Positions 25,497 through 31,365 of a DNA stretch of 64,000 nucleotides are shown piece after piece. The notes under the pieces are model-generated. The model saw only the letters and a list, made by a program, of their open reading frames with translations, searched no databases and was not told where the DNA came from. Both the position numbers and the translations under genes were made by a program. Source of the DNA: Pseudofrankia inefficax (GTDB lineage Bacteria > Actinomycetota > Actinomycetes > Frankiales > Frankiaceae). The DNA lies in contig NC_014666.1 in NCBI RefSeq assembly GCF_000166135.1, forward strand, positions 8,308,001 to 8,372,000, read 5' to 3'. Numbering within the stretch: the stretch's first letter is position 1; each line of letters opens with the position of its first letter.

Positions 25497-26186
25497 ATGG
25501 CCCTGCGCAGCCCGGCGAGCGGAAGAACCCCCGGGGGGCGTCGTCGCCAGCCGGAGGCGACTCGTGAGCGCCTGCTCGCCGCCGCCGTCGACCTCTTCGC
25601 CGAACGCGGTTACGACCGTGTCCGGGTTCGCGACATCGCCGACCGGGCCGGCGTGACGACCGGCGCGATCTACGCGCACTACCCGGACATGGCCTCGTTG
25701 CTCGCCGACGCGGCCGGCCGGGCCGTCGACCACGCGGTCGAGGCGGTCGCGCACGTCGGCCACGGCGAGGTCGGGGCCGCCCTGCTGGCGACGATGACCA
25801 CCACGGCGGCCGGCGGGCGGCGGCTGTCCCGCGAGCAGGCGCTGCTGCTGGAGGCGATGGTCGCGGCCAGGCGGGAGCCGACGCTGCGCCAGGCACTCGG
25901 TGAGGTGCTGCGTGACCGGCTCGAAGTGCTGCGCGGCGCCGTCGTACAGGCGCGCGAGGACGGCGAGCTACGCCCCGACCTCGCCCCGGACGCGGTCGCC
26001 TGGTTCCTCTACCTGGCCCCCATCGGGTTTCTCACCGGCCGAGCCGCCGGGATACCCGGCCCGGATCTGCATGAGCTGCGCACGGTTCTCGAAGCCGCCG
26101 TCGCGGGTCTGACCCCAACCGGGACCGACACGGGCGCCGGCACCGAGGCCTGTCACGAGACGCTCGCCGAGTCTGACGGGACCTAG
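25497..26186 (+). CDS. TetR-family transcriptional regulator
   Basis: This 229-residue protein has an N-terminal TetR helix-turn-helix at about residues 20-70 (RERLLAAAVDLFAERGYDRV, then IADRAGVTTGAIYAHYPDMA), preceded by a basic tail. The C-terminal ligand domain is all-helical. It converges on the amidohydrolase gene, and the two stop codons share the tetranucleotide CTAG (26183-26186). It is 81 bp downstream of the secreted protein gene. The regulated genes are unknown. Confidence 0.92.
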   Translation: MALRSPASGRTPGGRRRQPEATRERLLAAAVDLFAERGYDRVRVRDIADRAGVTTGAIYAHYPDMASLLADAAGRAVDHAVEAVAHVGHGEVGAALLATMTTTAAGGRRLSREQALLLEAMVAARREPTLRQALGEVLRDRLEVLRGAVVQAREDGELRPDLAPDAVAWFLYLAPIGFLTGRAAGIPGPDLHELRTVLEAAVAGLTPTGTDTGAGTEACHETLAESDGT

Positions 26187-27829
26187 CCCGTGTCGCCGGT
26201 CTTGGGGTGAGACGCGGTCCCGTGCGTCCTGGACCGGGGCGGCTTGGGCGAGCCGTGGTGCTCCTTGCCGCGCGGCTCCTTGATCAGCGAGATCGGCCCC
26301 GGCACCCGCTTGCGTGACCGCGCCGCGCCGCGCTTGGTCGCCGCGGGCTTGGTGGCGGCCGACGGCGCTTCCTGCGCGGGCGCCGACGGCTGCCGCGCCG
26401 TGGCCTTCGCCGGCTTCGACGCCGCCTTCGACGCGGTCGTCTTCGACGCGGTCGCCTTCGCGGTGGTCGCCTTCGCGGTCGTCGCCTTCGGGGTCGTGGC
26501 CTTCGGGGCGGCCCGCGGCTTGGCGGCCCGAGGCTTGCCCGCGGGCGACGGAGTCGGTGGCGCCTCGGCGGCGGCGGCCGGCTCGGCGAGGCCGTAGACC
26601 CGACGGGCGTTGCCGGCGCCGATCATCACGGCGATCCGCGCCGCGTCCTGGGCCGTCCAGTCGTCGGCCTCGACGCCCGCGGCGAGGAAGGCGCCGAGCC
26701 CCCGGCGGAACAGCTCCGCCCCCAGCAGGTACAGCTCGGCGAGCGCGAAGGCGTCGGTGGAGAACAGCATCTTGCCGAACGGCGCGAGCTCCAGCGTCTC
26801 GGCCAGCACCGTGGCGCTCCCCCGGCCGAGGTTGTGGGTGGCCAGACCGACATCCACGTAGACGTGCGGGAACACCTGCGCCAGGTAGCCCGCCTCCCGG
26901 TGGTACGGGTAGCAGTGCAGCAGCAGCACCGGCGCGCCCGTGGGGACCAGCTCGCGCAGCAGGTCGGTCAGCAGCAGCGGGTTGGCCCGGGCCAGGTGCA
27001 GGTCGGTGTCGCCGAAGCCGGTGTGGATCTGGACCGGCAGGCCGAGGTCCGCGCCGGTCCAGATCAGGAAGCTGTGCAGCACGGGGTCGGCCAGCCGGAT
27101 CGGCGCGCCGGCCCGCAGCTGGCTGACCCAGCCACGCACCGAGGCGATCACCGCCCGGTCGGTGGGCCGCTCGGACGGCAGGTCAAGCCCGACCCGGTAG
27201 GCGGCCACCGACTTGACGCCGACGACGTCGACGCCGCCCGGGCCGGCGGCCTTCCTGGCCTGGTCGGCCGGCCGCTTGGCGCGACCGGCGGTCGGCTCGT
27301 CGCGGCCGGTACGGGCGGCAAGCCGGGAGCGGACCAGGTCGGGAAAGTGGGCCACGCCGACCTGACCGGTCACGATGTCGAGCGCCACCTGCTCCGCGAG
27401 CGGCTCAAGCCGGACGACGTCATGGGCGCGGGCGCCCGCCGCCCCGGCCAGGTCCGCGGCGCCGGTCAGCCGCTCCGGGGCGAAGCCGGTGTCGACGCAG
27501 AGCTCCTCGATACCCGCCGCGCGCAGCATCCGGGTGGCCACCTCGTCCGGGCCGAGCTCTGCCCGGCGGGCCAGATAGTCGTCCGGCTGGGCGTGCGGGG
27601 CGAGGTCGAGCACCGGTGCGCACCAGCGCCGCAACGCGAGCCCGAGCTGGCTGTCGAAGAAGGACGTGCCCACCGGAGCGGGGTGGTCCGCCTCCGTCAT
27701 GGCTCGCTCGAAGTCGGCCCGGTCTAGCTCGCGGCGCACCAGCCCGTGGCAGTGGTGGTCGACGAGCGGGAGCGTCTCGATCCTGGGCAGCCGCACTCGG
27801 AGTGCTTCCCCCGGATCCCCCGTCAACAT
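26183..27829 (-). CDS. Amidohydrolase (metal-dependent hydrolase) with histone-H1-like C-terminal tail
   Basis: Residues 1 to about 400 form an amidohydrolase-2 TIM barrel. The N-terminal metal motif is LVDHHCHG (about 22-29), further ligand candidates lie in LLLHCYPYHREAGY, and a C-terminal Asp is in LFSTDAFALAELY. About 120 residues rich in Lys, Ala, Thr and Pro follow, with repeated ATTAKAT-type units like a histone H1 or HupB tail, and may bind nucleic acid. Amidohydrolases of this group are found fused or adjacent to glutamine-synthetase-like enzymes (FluG, plant NodGS); here such a synthetase lies 2 kb away (29881-31365). The substrate is unknown. The last residues overlap the TetR stop. 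Confidence 0.85.
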   Translation of the reverse strand: MLTGDPGEALRVRLPRIETLPLVDHHCHGLVRRELDRADFERAMTEADHPAPVGTSFFDSQLGLALRRWCAPVLDLAPHAQPDDYLARRAELGPDEVATRMLRAAGIEELCVDTGFAPERLTGAADLAGAAGARAHDVVRLEPLAEQVALDIVTGQVGVAHFPDLVRSRLAARTGRDEPTAGRAKRPADQARKAAGPGGVDVVGVKSVAAYRVGLDLPSERPTDRAVIASVRGWVSQLRAGAPIRLADPVLHSFLIWTGADLGLPVQIHTGFGDTDLHLARANPLLLTDLLRELVPTGAPVLLLHCYPYHREAGYLAQVFPHVYVDVGLATHNLGRGSATVLAETLELAPFGKMLFSTDAFALAELYLLGAELFRRGLGAFLAAGVEADDWTAQDAARIAVMIGAGNARRVYGLAEPAAAAEAPPTPSPAGKPRAAKPRAAPKATTPKATTAKATTAKATASKTTASKAASKPAKATARQPSAPAQEAPSAATKPAATKRGAARSRKRVPGPISLIKEPRGKEHHGSPKPPRSRTHGTASHPKTGDTG

Positions 27830-27956
27830 GCGTGGGGCGCCAGCGGGGTGGTGCCGGCCAGCCGGCCTTCCGGGGCGTCGACGGGCCCCGGGAGGCCGGT
27901 GGACGGACGGTAAACGGCTCCCAAAGTCTGGCCCGCGGCCCCGACGGCATCATCGG

Positions 27957-28103
27957 TTATCCACAGGTATCCACAGGCTCTGTGCAGCCGATGGGCGCTG
28001 AAACCGCTGCACAGCCGGCACATAGTCCGGATGCCTAGCAGTCAACCTGTCCATCGGCCCGGCTATACACAGCCCACCCCGGGTTCTCCACAAGTTATCC
28101 ACA
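27957..28103 (+). promoter_or_regulatory. Cluster of five DnaA-box-like 9-mers
   Basis: TTATCCACA, the classic DnaA box, occurs exactly at 27957-27965 and 28095-28103. One-mismatch forms are at 27967-27975 (GTATCCACA), 28063-28071 (CTATACACA) and 28084-28092 (TTCTCCACA). All are in the same orientation and lie in the divergent region between the amidohydrolase and desaturase genes (27830-28326), which holds no gene. The sites may regulate the desaturase or titrate DnaA. No replication genes are nearby. Confidence 0.6.
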
Positions 28104-28326
28104 GGCAATGCGGTGCTGTGTGGAGCAGCCAGGCCGGTAGCGTGGCCCGGGCACCGGGGCCCCGCGGCACCGCCCGGTCCGGCCGTCGCGCCCGGGTTCG
28201 GCGGCGACCCGCCACCGCGGGCGCACCCACCGCCACGCTCGGCTGTTCCGGGGGAACAGTTCGCCCACGGAAAGTCCACTCCGCCGGGACATGGTCCGGC
28301 TCGGGTTCTGCTGCGAGGGTCAGTCC

Positions 28327-29250
28327 ATGACCTCGTACACGGATTCCGACCTGCTGCGCGAGCTGGAGCCCGTCGCCGCGGCGAACCTCGACCGGCACCT
28401 GGGCCTGGCCGCCGAGTGGATGCCGCACGAGTACGTCCCGTGGAGCCTCGGGCGCGACTTCGACTCCCTGCCGTGGGAGCCGGGGCAGTCCACGCTGTCG
28501 GACATCGCGCAGCTGGCGTTCGAGGTCAACCTGCTCACCGAGGACAACCTGCCGAGCTACCACCGGGAGATCGCGGTCGGCTTCGGCCTCGACAGCGCCT
28601 GGGGCGCCTGGGTCGGCCGGTGGACGGCCGAGGAGGGCCGGCACGCGATCGCCATGCGCGACTACCTGCTGGTCACCCGGGGCGTCGACCCGGTCGCCCT
28701 GGAGCGCGGCCGGATGCACCAGATGCAGGTCGGCTACAGCAGTGGCGGCAAGACCCCGCTGCGCGTCATCGCGTACGTGACGTTCCAGGAGCTGGCCACC
28801 CGGATCGCGCACCGCAACACCGGCCGGTACGCCGAGGACCCGGTGGCCGAGAAGCTGATGGCGCGGATCGCCGCCGACGAGAACCTGCACATGATCTTCT
28901 ATCGGAACCTGATGGCAGCCGCGCTGGACTTCGACCCGAATGGGACCGTTCAGGCGATCCGCGACGAGGTTCTCGGCTTCGAGATGCCCGGCACCGGCAT
29001 CCTGGACTTCGCCGAGAAGGCCCGCCGCATCGCCGAGGCCGGCATCTACGACCTGCGCATCCACCACGACGAGGTGCTGACGCCGGTCCTGCGGCAGGTG
29101 AAGTTCTTCCAGCTCGAGGGCCTCGACGCCGCGGCCTCGCAGGCGAGGGACGAGGTGGCTGCCTTCCTGGAGGGCCTCGACTCCTTCGCCACCCGTCAGG
29201 CCGAGAAGAAGGCGAACCGCGACGCCCGCAAGGCCGCCGCCCAGGCCTGA
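28327..29250 (+). CDS. Soluble acyl-ACP desaturase (stearoyl-ACP desaturase family)
   Basis: This protein of about 307 residues has the complete di-iron ligand set of the family: Glu72 (TEDNLPSYH), Glu103 and His106 (EEGRHA), Glu155 (FQEL), Glu185 and His188 (DENLH). It would introduce a double bond into an ACP-bound fatty acyl chain using electrons from a ferredoxin. The ATG at 28327 (MTSYTDSD) is chosen over 28291 because GAGGG lies 8 bp before it. The upstream region holds the DnaA-box-like cluster. The Lys/Ala-rich C-terminus (RQAEKKANRDARKAAAQA) is an ordinary tail for actinobacterial DesA proteins. Confidence 0.93.
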   Translation: MTSYTDSDLLRELEPVAAANLDRHLGLAAEWMPHEYVPWSLGRDFDSLPWEPGQSTLSDIAQLAFEVNLLTEDNLPSYHREIAVGFGLDSAWGAWVGRWTAEEGRHAIAMRDYLLVTRGVDPVALERGRMHQMQVGYSSGGKTPLRVIAYVTFQELATRIAHRNTGRYAEDPVAEKLMARIAADENLHMIFYRNLMAAALDFDPNGTVQAIRDEVLGFEMPGTGILDFAEKARRIAEAGIYDLRIHHDEVLTPVLRQVKFFQLEGLDAAASQARDEVAAFLEGLDSFATRQAEKKANRDARKAAAQA

Positions 29251-29880: not shown

Positions 29881-31365
29881 TCAGTGCCGCCAGAGGGACT
29901 GGGCGACGACCTCGTCGGCGTCGGCGGTCGCGAAGAGCTCGATCTCGGCCCGCCGGACCGTGACGATCGTGTCGTGCAGCTCGGCCCCGAAGGCGGCACG
30001 CAGGACGGGATCGGCCTCGAACGCGGCGACCGCGTCGCCGAGCCGGCCGGGCAGGGCCTCGAGGCCGCGCCGGGCCCGCTCAGCGGCCGGCAGTGCCGCC
30101 GGGTCGACGTCGACCGGTTCCGGCAGCCGGGCACCGTCCTCGATCCCCGACCGGCCGCAGGCGAGCACGCTGGCGAGCATCAGGTACGGGTTGGCCGTCA
30201 GGTCGAAGCACTTGATCTCAAGGTGGGGCGACGCGTGGAGCCACTGCTCGGCGCTTGCCTTCAGGGCGGAGTCCGGAGCCTGCGCCGCCTGGCCGCCGAC
30301 CGCCAGGCCGGTCACCAGCCGCAGCGCGGCCTCCCGGTTTTCCACGCCCCAGCAGGCGAACGCCCCGGCCCAGCGGGATGGCTTGAGCCGCAGGTAGGAG
30401 GCGACGCTGGGGGCGCCGACGGCGAGAAGCGCCGGCAGGTGAGCCAGGATGCCGGCGGCGAAGTGCTCTCCGAGGGCGCTCAGCCCGGCCGGCCCGGTCC
30501 CGTCGATGAGCACCTCGCGGCCGCCGCCCTGACCCGCGCCCGCGGCGCCACCCTGGCCCGCGCGCACGGCGCCGCCCCGATCTGCGACCGCGCCGCGACG
30601 CAGGCTCACGTGGGCGTGCCCGCCGTTGCCGACGCCGGCCGCGACGACCGCCGGCGAGAACGAGGTACGCAGCCCGTGCCGGGCGCCGACGGCCCGGATC
30701 GTCTGGCGGACCAGCACGCTGCTGTCGGCCGCGCCGAGCGGATCCTCGGGAGCGGTCGAGACCTCGAACTGGCCGGGCGCGTACTCGGGATGGATCTGCT
30801 CGACGGTGAGCCCCTGCTCGGTGAGCGCGCGGACGATGTCCCGCAGGTAGTCCGCCTGCTCGATCACCCGCTCCAGGCCGTAGGCCGGCCCGGCCGCCGC
30901 CGGCCGGGGCACGGCATCACCCGGCCGGTCCGGGTAGATCGTCCACTCGATCTCGATCCCGGCCAACGCGGGCAGGTGACGCTCGGCGAACCCCTCGGCC
31001 TCGCGGCGCAGGATCGCGCGGGTGTCCTGCGGATGCGGGCGGCCAAGCTGGTCGAACCGGTCGGCCGGCGCCCAGGCCCAGCCCGGCTGCGCCGCCAGCG
31101 GGACGACCCGGTCGAGGTCCGGGCGCAGCCGCAGGTCGCCGACCGGGCCACCCGCGTAGCGTCCGGCGGCGAGGTCGTCGTTCAGCAGGAACGCGTCGAA
31201 GGACGGCGAAGCGCCGACCCCCACGACCGCCGCCCGTTCCAGCCCGCCGACCGGCACGCATTTCGCGCGGGTGATCCCACTGTTGTCGACGAAGGTCAGC
31301 GCGACCGCGTCCACACCCCGCGCTCGGAGCTCCGCGGTGACCGACGACGCCCTCTCCCCGTCCAT
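29881..31365 (-). CDS. Glutamine-synthetase-like ligase
   Basis: This 494-residue protein has a GlnA-type N-terminal beta-grasp (VDAVALTFVDNSGITRAKCVP) and a catalytic domain. Metal and glutamate-site motifs include IEIEWTIYP, QIHPEYAPGQFEVSTAPEDP and NGGHAHVSL, and a C-terminal region includes RLKPSRWAGAFACWGVENREAALR. It is shorter and more divergent than housekeeping GlnA and fits the group that glutamylates amines such as polyamines or ethanolamine. The amidohydrolase at 26183-27829 may hydrolyse the same class of gamma-glutamyl compounds, as in FluG-like fusions (inference). It lies 17 bp downstream of tmk on the same strand and may be co-transcribed with it. Confidence 0.9.
   Translation of the reverse strand: MDGERASSVTAELRARGVDAVALTFVDNSGITRAKCVPVGGLERAAVVGVGASPSFDAFLLNDDLAAGRYAGGPVGDLRLRPDLDRVVPLAAQPGWAWAPADRFDQLGRPHPQDTRAILRREAEGFAERHLPALAGIEIEWTIYPDRPGDAVPRPAAAGPAYGLERVIEQADYLRDIVRALTEQGLTVEQIHPEYAPGQFEVSTAPEDPLGAADSSVLVRQTIRAVGARHGLRTSFSPAVVAAGVGNGGHAHVSLRRGAVADRGGAVRAGQGGAAGAGQGGGREVLIDGTGPAGLSALGEHFAAGILAHLPALLAVGAPSVASYLRLKPSRWAGAFACWGVENREAALRLVTGLAVGGQAAQAPDSALKASAEQWLHASPHLEIKCFDLTANPYLMLASVLACGRSGIEDGARLPEPVDVDPAALPAAERARRGLEALPGRLGDAVAAFEADPVLRAAFGAELHDTIVTVRRAEIELFATADADEVVAQSLWRH

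Follow-up and report, generated by a model that had tools for sequence, protein, structure and literature searches.

A divergent intergenic region with five DnaA-like boxes

The stretch of DNA analysed here, hereafter called the window, is a 64,000-nucleotide piece of the Pseudofrankia inefficax chromosome, corresponding to C1:8308001-8372000 of the single 8,815,781-base contig of genome G000. It contains an array of DnaA-like boxes located in the intergenic region between two divergent genes, one for an amidohydrolase (PF04909) and one for a desaturase (PF03405); the family matches of these two genes confirm the placement given in an earlier note on this DNA, hereafter the original prediction. 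Five 9-mers resembling the DnaA box lie within 147 bp (27957-28103), all on the + strand. Two of them are perfect, two carry one mismatch and one carries two, so that the original prediction was right about five same-direction 9-mers in 147 bp and wrong in counting three one-mismatch sites. The components of the array, in window coordinates, are as follows.

27955..28105, + strand: whole DnaA-box array, as matched by the sequence-only covariance model R1 (E 3.0e-29)
27957..27965, + strand: box A, TTATCCACA, 0 mismatches
27967..27975, + strand: box B, GTATCCACA, 1 mismatch, 10 bp from A
28000..28014, + strand: spacer stretch GAAACCGCTGCACAG, between boxes B and C, partly conserved
28063..28071, + strand: box C, CTATACACA, weak, 2 mismatches
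28084..28092, + strand: box D, TTCTCCACA, 1 mismatch, 21 bp from C
28095..28103, + strand: box E, TTATCCACA, 0 mismatches, 11 bp from D

R1 was built from the eight Pseudofrankia copies of the array, of which the window copy is one, and the array is its sole match at E<=0.1 in the G000 genome. The third box, which is weak in the window, reads CTATCCACA in the near relative G002, with a single mismatch.

The cluster is real and exceeds what chance would produce. The window contains four sites with 0 or 1 mismatch, all of them in the cluster, against 0.95 expected, and at least four such sites anywhere in the window were found in 1 of 100 shuffles. When the highest number of these sites per 150 bp was scored in 300 dinucleotide shuffles, it was 0 in 104 of them, 1 in 195 and 2 in a single one, compared with the 4 observed; a chance occurrence at this density is therefore very unlikely, as originally proposed. 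The genome-wide count that had been suggested as a check points the same way, with 12 exact copies of TTATCCACA versus 4 of the reversed-pattern control (276 versus 163 when one mismatch is allowed). Similar clusters scattered at random through the genome had been named as the outcome that would speak against the original prediction; the 8.8 Mb genome contains 10 tandem pairs of the form TCCACAN{2,12}TNTCCACA, two of which belong to this cluster, and the control gave none, so that such scattering was not observed. The locus thus displays one feature of extra-oriC DnaA-box clusters, namely several boxes grouped outside the replication origin, oriC, beyond chance.

Conservation and anatomy of the array in Frankiaceae

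R1 was run on 35 genomes of the family, which include the genera g1, g2 and g6, suggested to be Pseudofrankia (8 genomes), Parafrankia (6) and Frankia (13). Matches at E<=0.1 were obtained in 26 of the 35 genomes; several of these hits correspond to oriC or to another group of boxes, and R1 failed to detect some true copies. Copies of the array were accepted after a check of both place and sequence, and it is by chance that their number, 26, coincides with that of the R1-matching genomes. By this procedure, 26 of the 27 genomes of the three genera (8/8 Pseudofrankia, 6/6 Parafrankia, 12/13 Frankia) proved to have, at the orthologous place, a core accompanied by at least one upstream box. The exception is the Frankia genome G033, which is 85% complete and gave no amidohydrolase match at E<=1e-20 either. 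Altogether the array is missing from nine family genomes, and in eight of these the amidohydrolase was not found at E<=1e-20: besides G033, five genomes of genus g3 together with G010 and G011 gave neither the amidohydrolase at this threshold nor the core signature. In the ninth, G013, where no array was seen, a glutamine-synthetase-like gene is immediately followed by the amidohydrolase gene, both having the same direction.

The core signature, TCCACANGTTNTCCACAG, occurs once per genome in 8/8 Pseudofrankia and in 27 of the 35 family genomes in all, some of these matches being other sites (G033, for one, has a signature match, on C28); several genomes outside Pseudofrankia have a second match, and the control gave 0 in 35. 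When the eight Pseudofrankia copies were aligned in the direction of the element, 35 of the 45 columns within boxes were invariant versus 25 of the 106 elsewhere (Fisher P 1.1e-9, a value to be taken as a guide only since the sequences are related). A pattern scan of genome contigs returned 70 stretches, distributed among Frankiaceae (20), Glycomyces (9), Nocardiopsis (1), Streptomyces (1) and others (39). Thirteen of the 50 stretches outside Frankiaceae were examined; the one from Nocardiopsis lies beside dnaA.

The core of the array has a fixed layout, in which the weak box C is followed after 21 bp by box D, itself followed after 11 bp by box E. The letters T.T.C.CA of box C are found at -21 from D in 26/26 copies. 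The pattern by which the copies were cut out already included the D-E spacing of 11, but not the position of C at -21; the G019 and G028 copies, whose E flank escapes the signature pattern, were reached via the amidohydrolase gene. The upstream part is more variable, consisting of two boxes 10 bp apart in 8/8 Pseudofrankia, the only genus with this pair, and mostly of one box in the other genera. In the spacer between the upstream boxes and C, a GAAA motif recurs, as judged by eye, in the majority of the copies from the three genera, though not in G020.

In three Pseudofrankia genomes, G000 (the genome of the window), G001 and G002, the array as a whole is reversed with respect to the genes on both sides, its internal order and spacing being preserved. 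The flanking genes themselves keep the directions seen in G003-G006, so that the array has the same direction as the desaturase gene in G000-G002 and the opposite direction in G003-G006. Since the arrays of G003-G007, Parafrankia and Frankia all point to the amidohydrolase gene, the inversion is best read as a single event derived in the G000-G002 line. An invertible switch was also considered and rejected: in the window's genome, the array is surrounded by inverted repeats of 11-18 bases, GC-rich and 72-93% complementary, among which there is no clear recombination site, and the inversion therefore looks like one old event.

Neighbouring genes and position relative to oriC

Three genes of the window matter for the neighbourhood of the array.

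26183..27829, - strand: amidohydrolase gene (PF04909), the constant neighbour of the array in three genera
28291..29250, + strand: desaturase gene (PF03405), adjoining the array in 7/8 Pseudofrankia only
29881..31365, - strand: glutamine-synthetase-like gene (PF00120), whose orthologue is the divergent partner beyond the array in 15/18 Parafrankia and Frankia copies

In 26/26 copies (8/8 Pseudofrankia, 6/6 Parafrankia and 12/13 Frankia genomes), the array is located 5' of the amidohydrolase gene. It is directed at this gene in 23 of them and reversed in the remaining three, those of G000-G002. Between box E and the point where the alignable part of the amidohydrolase gene begins there are about 20-320 bp, and in the window the array occupies the region 128-274 bp ahead of the first base of the open reading frame used. 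On the other side, the glutamine-synthetase-like gene was not seen opposite the array in G008 or G023, each viewed over about 4 kb, nor in G028, viewed over about 1.3 kb.

The desaturase has relatives at E<=1e-60 in 44 of the 58 genomes searched, and boxes lie within 1.5 kb on either side of it in 7/8 Pseudofrankia. In the eighth genome of this genus, G007, the boxes are about 1.7 kb from the desaturase gene, beside the amidohydrolase gene. Among the 18 Parafrankia and Frankia copies, desaturase and array are about 2-11 kb apart in 13 and about 17 kb apart in G019; in the remaining four, the stretch or contig seen does not include the desaturase gene. The array was considered as part of the desaturase locus and this was rejected, because the 1.5 kb on either side of 22 desaturase loci outside the window's genus are free of box clusters (at most two sites with 0 or 1 mismatch each). 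The R1 search placed the array of these other genera further off, beside the amidohydrolase gene, and the array is therefore independent of the desaturase. In the five g3 genomes, the desaturase neighbourhood contains neither the amidohydrolase gene nor the core.

The desaturase gene also contains, at window 28633-28700 (- strand), a match to Rfam ASdes, an antisense-to-desaturase small RNA of Mycobacterium tuberculosis (73.6 bits, gathering score 40), which is probably due to conservation of the coding sequence and not to an RNA. This was the only match above the gathering score in an Rfam search around the array, two further ones falling below it, and a plasmid collection searched with the intergenic DNA gave no match.

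The original prediction had described the cluster as far from any replication gene. The genome's only DnaA match, at C1:662-1147, is about 480 kb from the array, assuming that the contig is circular. The same genome's oriC has the following features.

C1:2115-2645: oriC boxes, in the dnaA-dnaN intergenic region; box words TTGTCCACA (three times), TTCTCCACA, TTTTCCACA and TAATCCACA

Array and oriC share a box vocabulary. They differ in that the oriC boxes are found in both directions and are accompanied by a TACTACTAC run, two properties absent from the array. The array-oriC distance, obtained by subtraction and with a check on dnaA, is 482 kb in G000 (8.82 Mb, with the same assumption of circularity) and 420 kb in G001 (6.88 Mb). 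It is 380 kb in G006 (about 10 Mb, two contigs), 735 kb in G012 (7.50 Mb), 361 kb in G016 (5.43 Mb) and 739 kb in G029 (7.59 Mb). In these six assemblies, the array is thus 361-739 kb from oriC, or about 4-10% of genome length, which places it on the oriC side of the chromosome. It lies 5' of dnaA in the three Pseudofrankia and 3' of dnaA in the three Frankia; the array has therefore changed replichore while keeping its oriC-proximal place.

Other groups of boxes were encountered in the family. In G000, a pair of boxes (TTGTCCACA / TTATCCACA) at C1:95142-95163 (L019:5143-5164) falls between two convergent genes, a hypothetical one and crgA (PF06781), and its word TCCACAACCGTTGTCCACA is present in 7/7 other Pseudofrankia; with no promoter in view, this pair suggests that DnaA may bind there for its own sake. 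An inverted pair of perfect boxes at C1:8756498-8756521 (L017) lies ahead of dnaB, which encodes the replicative helicase, and a dense box cluster also precedes dnaB in 9/9 Glycomyces stretches from the pattern scan. Tandem boxes are also present at C1:8787848-8787877 (L051), near a NUDIX/DUF6049 gene pair, and at C1:8694498-8694519 (L018), between an aminotransferase gene and a PMT_2-like gene, where Frankia G016 and G029 have boxes too; words like those of both sites recur in other Pseudofrankia. A DnaA-like box pair at C1:1425627-1425650 (L052) lies just upstream of recA, and the same word occurs in G002. Finally, Parafrankia possesses at a different locus a second array of four tandem boxes (L175:5302, L176:4998 and L177:4950, three of six having been read), which outscores the amidohydrolase-side copy with R1 in 6/6 genomes.

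Possible roles of the array

The explanation that I favour, with moderate confidence, is that the array is a DnaA-box array outside oriC that titrates or regulates free DnaA. As judged from the box sequences, DnaA would bind boxes A, B, D and E, and the weak box C through cooperativity. The bound molecules would form a head-to-tail oligomer, boxes C, D and E being about two and one helical turns apart. Located 361-739 kb from oriC, the array would be replicated soon after initiation, and the additional copy would take up DnaA, thereby lowering free DnaA or altering its nucleotide state, so that re-initiation would be delayed. Titration of DnaA, one of the two roles envisaged in the original prediction, fits the box words, which are like those of oriC, as well as the conserved core spacing, the survival of the inversion and the oriC-side place. 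The fixed spacing is what an ordered DnaA oligomer would call for, and the survival of the inversion is in keeping with a direction-independent unit.

Several observations weigh against a role in titration or regulation of free DnaA. Each of the 26 copies accompanies one and the same gene, that of the amidohydrolase, and no amidohydrolase was obtained at E<=1e-20 from eight of the nine array-less genomes of the family, a distribution that suits an operator equally well. The distance to oriC may have been kept merely through synteny of the gene block. Furthermore, the genome has other DnaA-box groups (oriC, dnaB, and those at about 8694, 8787 and 95 kb), and the array need therefore not be decisive. 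As for precedents, a passage of one review states that the effect in Bacillus subtilis is strong only on removal of six clusters, and another passage of it that clusters with significant roles were not identified in B. subtilis, in contrast to Escherichia coli (PMC5295017).

The main alternative, which I consider tentatively, is that the array is instead a DnaA operator of the amidohydrolase gene, and in Parafrankia and Frankia perhaps also of the divergent glutamine-synthetase-like gene, through which promoters would be repressed or activated and metabolism tied to the replication cycle. Its constant location at the 5' side of the amidohydrolase gene, its orientation towards this gene in 23 of 26 copies and the roughly 20-320 bp that separate box E from its alignable part all argue for such an operator, as does the distribution of the gene, which was not found in eight of the nine array-less genomes and which in the ninth, G013, comes right after the glutamine-synthetase-like gene. 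It is less easily reconciled with the arrays of G000-G002, which point away from the gene, with the position of the array 128-274 bp before the open reading frame in the window, or with the persistence of the array in Pseudofrankia, where the glutamine-synthetase-like gene is no longer opposite; besides, five boxes over 150 bp exceed the needs of a simple operator. The operator and titration roles are compatible and may both be true. The main idea of the original prediction, that the array acts as a DnaA operator of the desaturase gene and links lipid synthesis to replication, now appears improbable. In 7/8 Pseudofrankia, no other gene separates the desaturase from the array. However, other genes intervene in G007 and in the 13 Parafrankia and Frankia copies that have the desaturase on the same stretch, without loss of the array; the 18 arrays of these two genera sit 5' of the amidohydrolase gene; and the array does not have the same direction relative to the desaturase in G000-G002 as in G003-G006.

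That the array is a second replication origin is very unlikely, despite its multiple boxes, the similar box words revealed by weak R1 matches in or beside oriC (G012 2504-2651, G006 1411762-1411912) and the lower GC content of the element relative to its surroundings in three Frankia copies (0.57-0.60 versus 0.70-0.75). The DnaA-trio is a mark of origins, and the array has no trio-like run: the longest TAN run is one triplet in the window element and in seven other copies, versus three in oriC. Over 22-34 kb of the window the GC skew likewise shows no clear switch, and the single dnaA match of the genome lies at another place. With E. coli DARS1 and DARS2, the array shares a short intergenic core of three close DnaA boxes with constant spacing. 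A DARS-like element reactivating ADP-DnaA is nevertheless very unlikely and was rejected on box direction, because box I must oppose boxes II and III in such an element (PMC5742627), whereas all conserved boxes of the array are head-to-tail. As to chance, or sites for another protein, DnaA binding is predicted from the boxes themselves, which leaves these explanations some room; the shuffles, the genome-wide counts and the conservation make them scarcely credible.

A more specific and rather speculative form of DnaA control is that the array is a dedicated, direction-independent locus of Frankiaceae, in which boxes C-D-E would nucleate an ordered oligomer and a protein bound to the GAAA spacer stretch would join the upstream boxes to them. 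Such a locus would change the nucleotide state of DnaA, as an actinobacterial counterpart of datA, instead of merely soaking DnaA up. Known systems offer points of comparison. Extra-oriC clusters were reportedly described in Streptomyces coelicolor by Smulczyk-Krawczyszyn et al. in 2006 and in B. subtilis by Okumura et al. in 2012. According to passages of reviews, they repress untimely initiation (PMC4585315, PMC5742627, PMC5295017), and removal of six of them in B. subtilis leads to early initiation (PMC5295017). Like the Frankiaceae array, these clusters are, in the reviews through which they are known here, oriC-side groups of DnaA boxes; the array itself has a fixed C-21-D-11-E core, common to three genera, and was inverted as a unit in one clade. 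E. coli datA is likewise a non-coding DnaA-box cluster near oriC, at 10 of 100 map minutes from it (PMC4585315), compared with about 4-10% of genome length here. It represents, in the passages of these reviews that deal with it, a more elaborate form of DnaA control by extra-oriC clusters, which needs IHF and promotes DnaA-ATP hydrolysis (PMC5295017, PMC5742627). The array, for its part, has the partly conserved GAAA spacer stretch.

The Frankiaceae array adds to the known extra-oriC DnaA-box clusters, with an unusually clear cross-genus geometry. No such site was reported in the literature found by a search on the DnaA boxes and origins of Frankia, Pseudofrankia and Parafrankia, which covered the titles and abstract openings listed and left subscription journals largely outside, and the term 'DnaA box' is absent from the text of PMC4255298. 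The restraint of DnaA in actinobacteria is poorly worked out. These bacteria are not known to possess SeqA or Hda. With its core geometry fixed in 26 genomes and its naturally inverted copies, the array provides ready alleles for studying how initiation is timed in slow-growing filaments, be it by titration or by ordered DnaA oligomers outside oriC.
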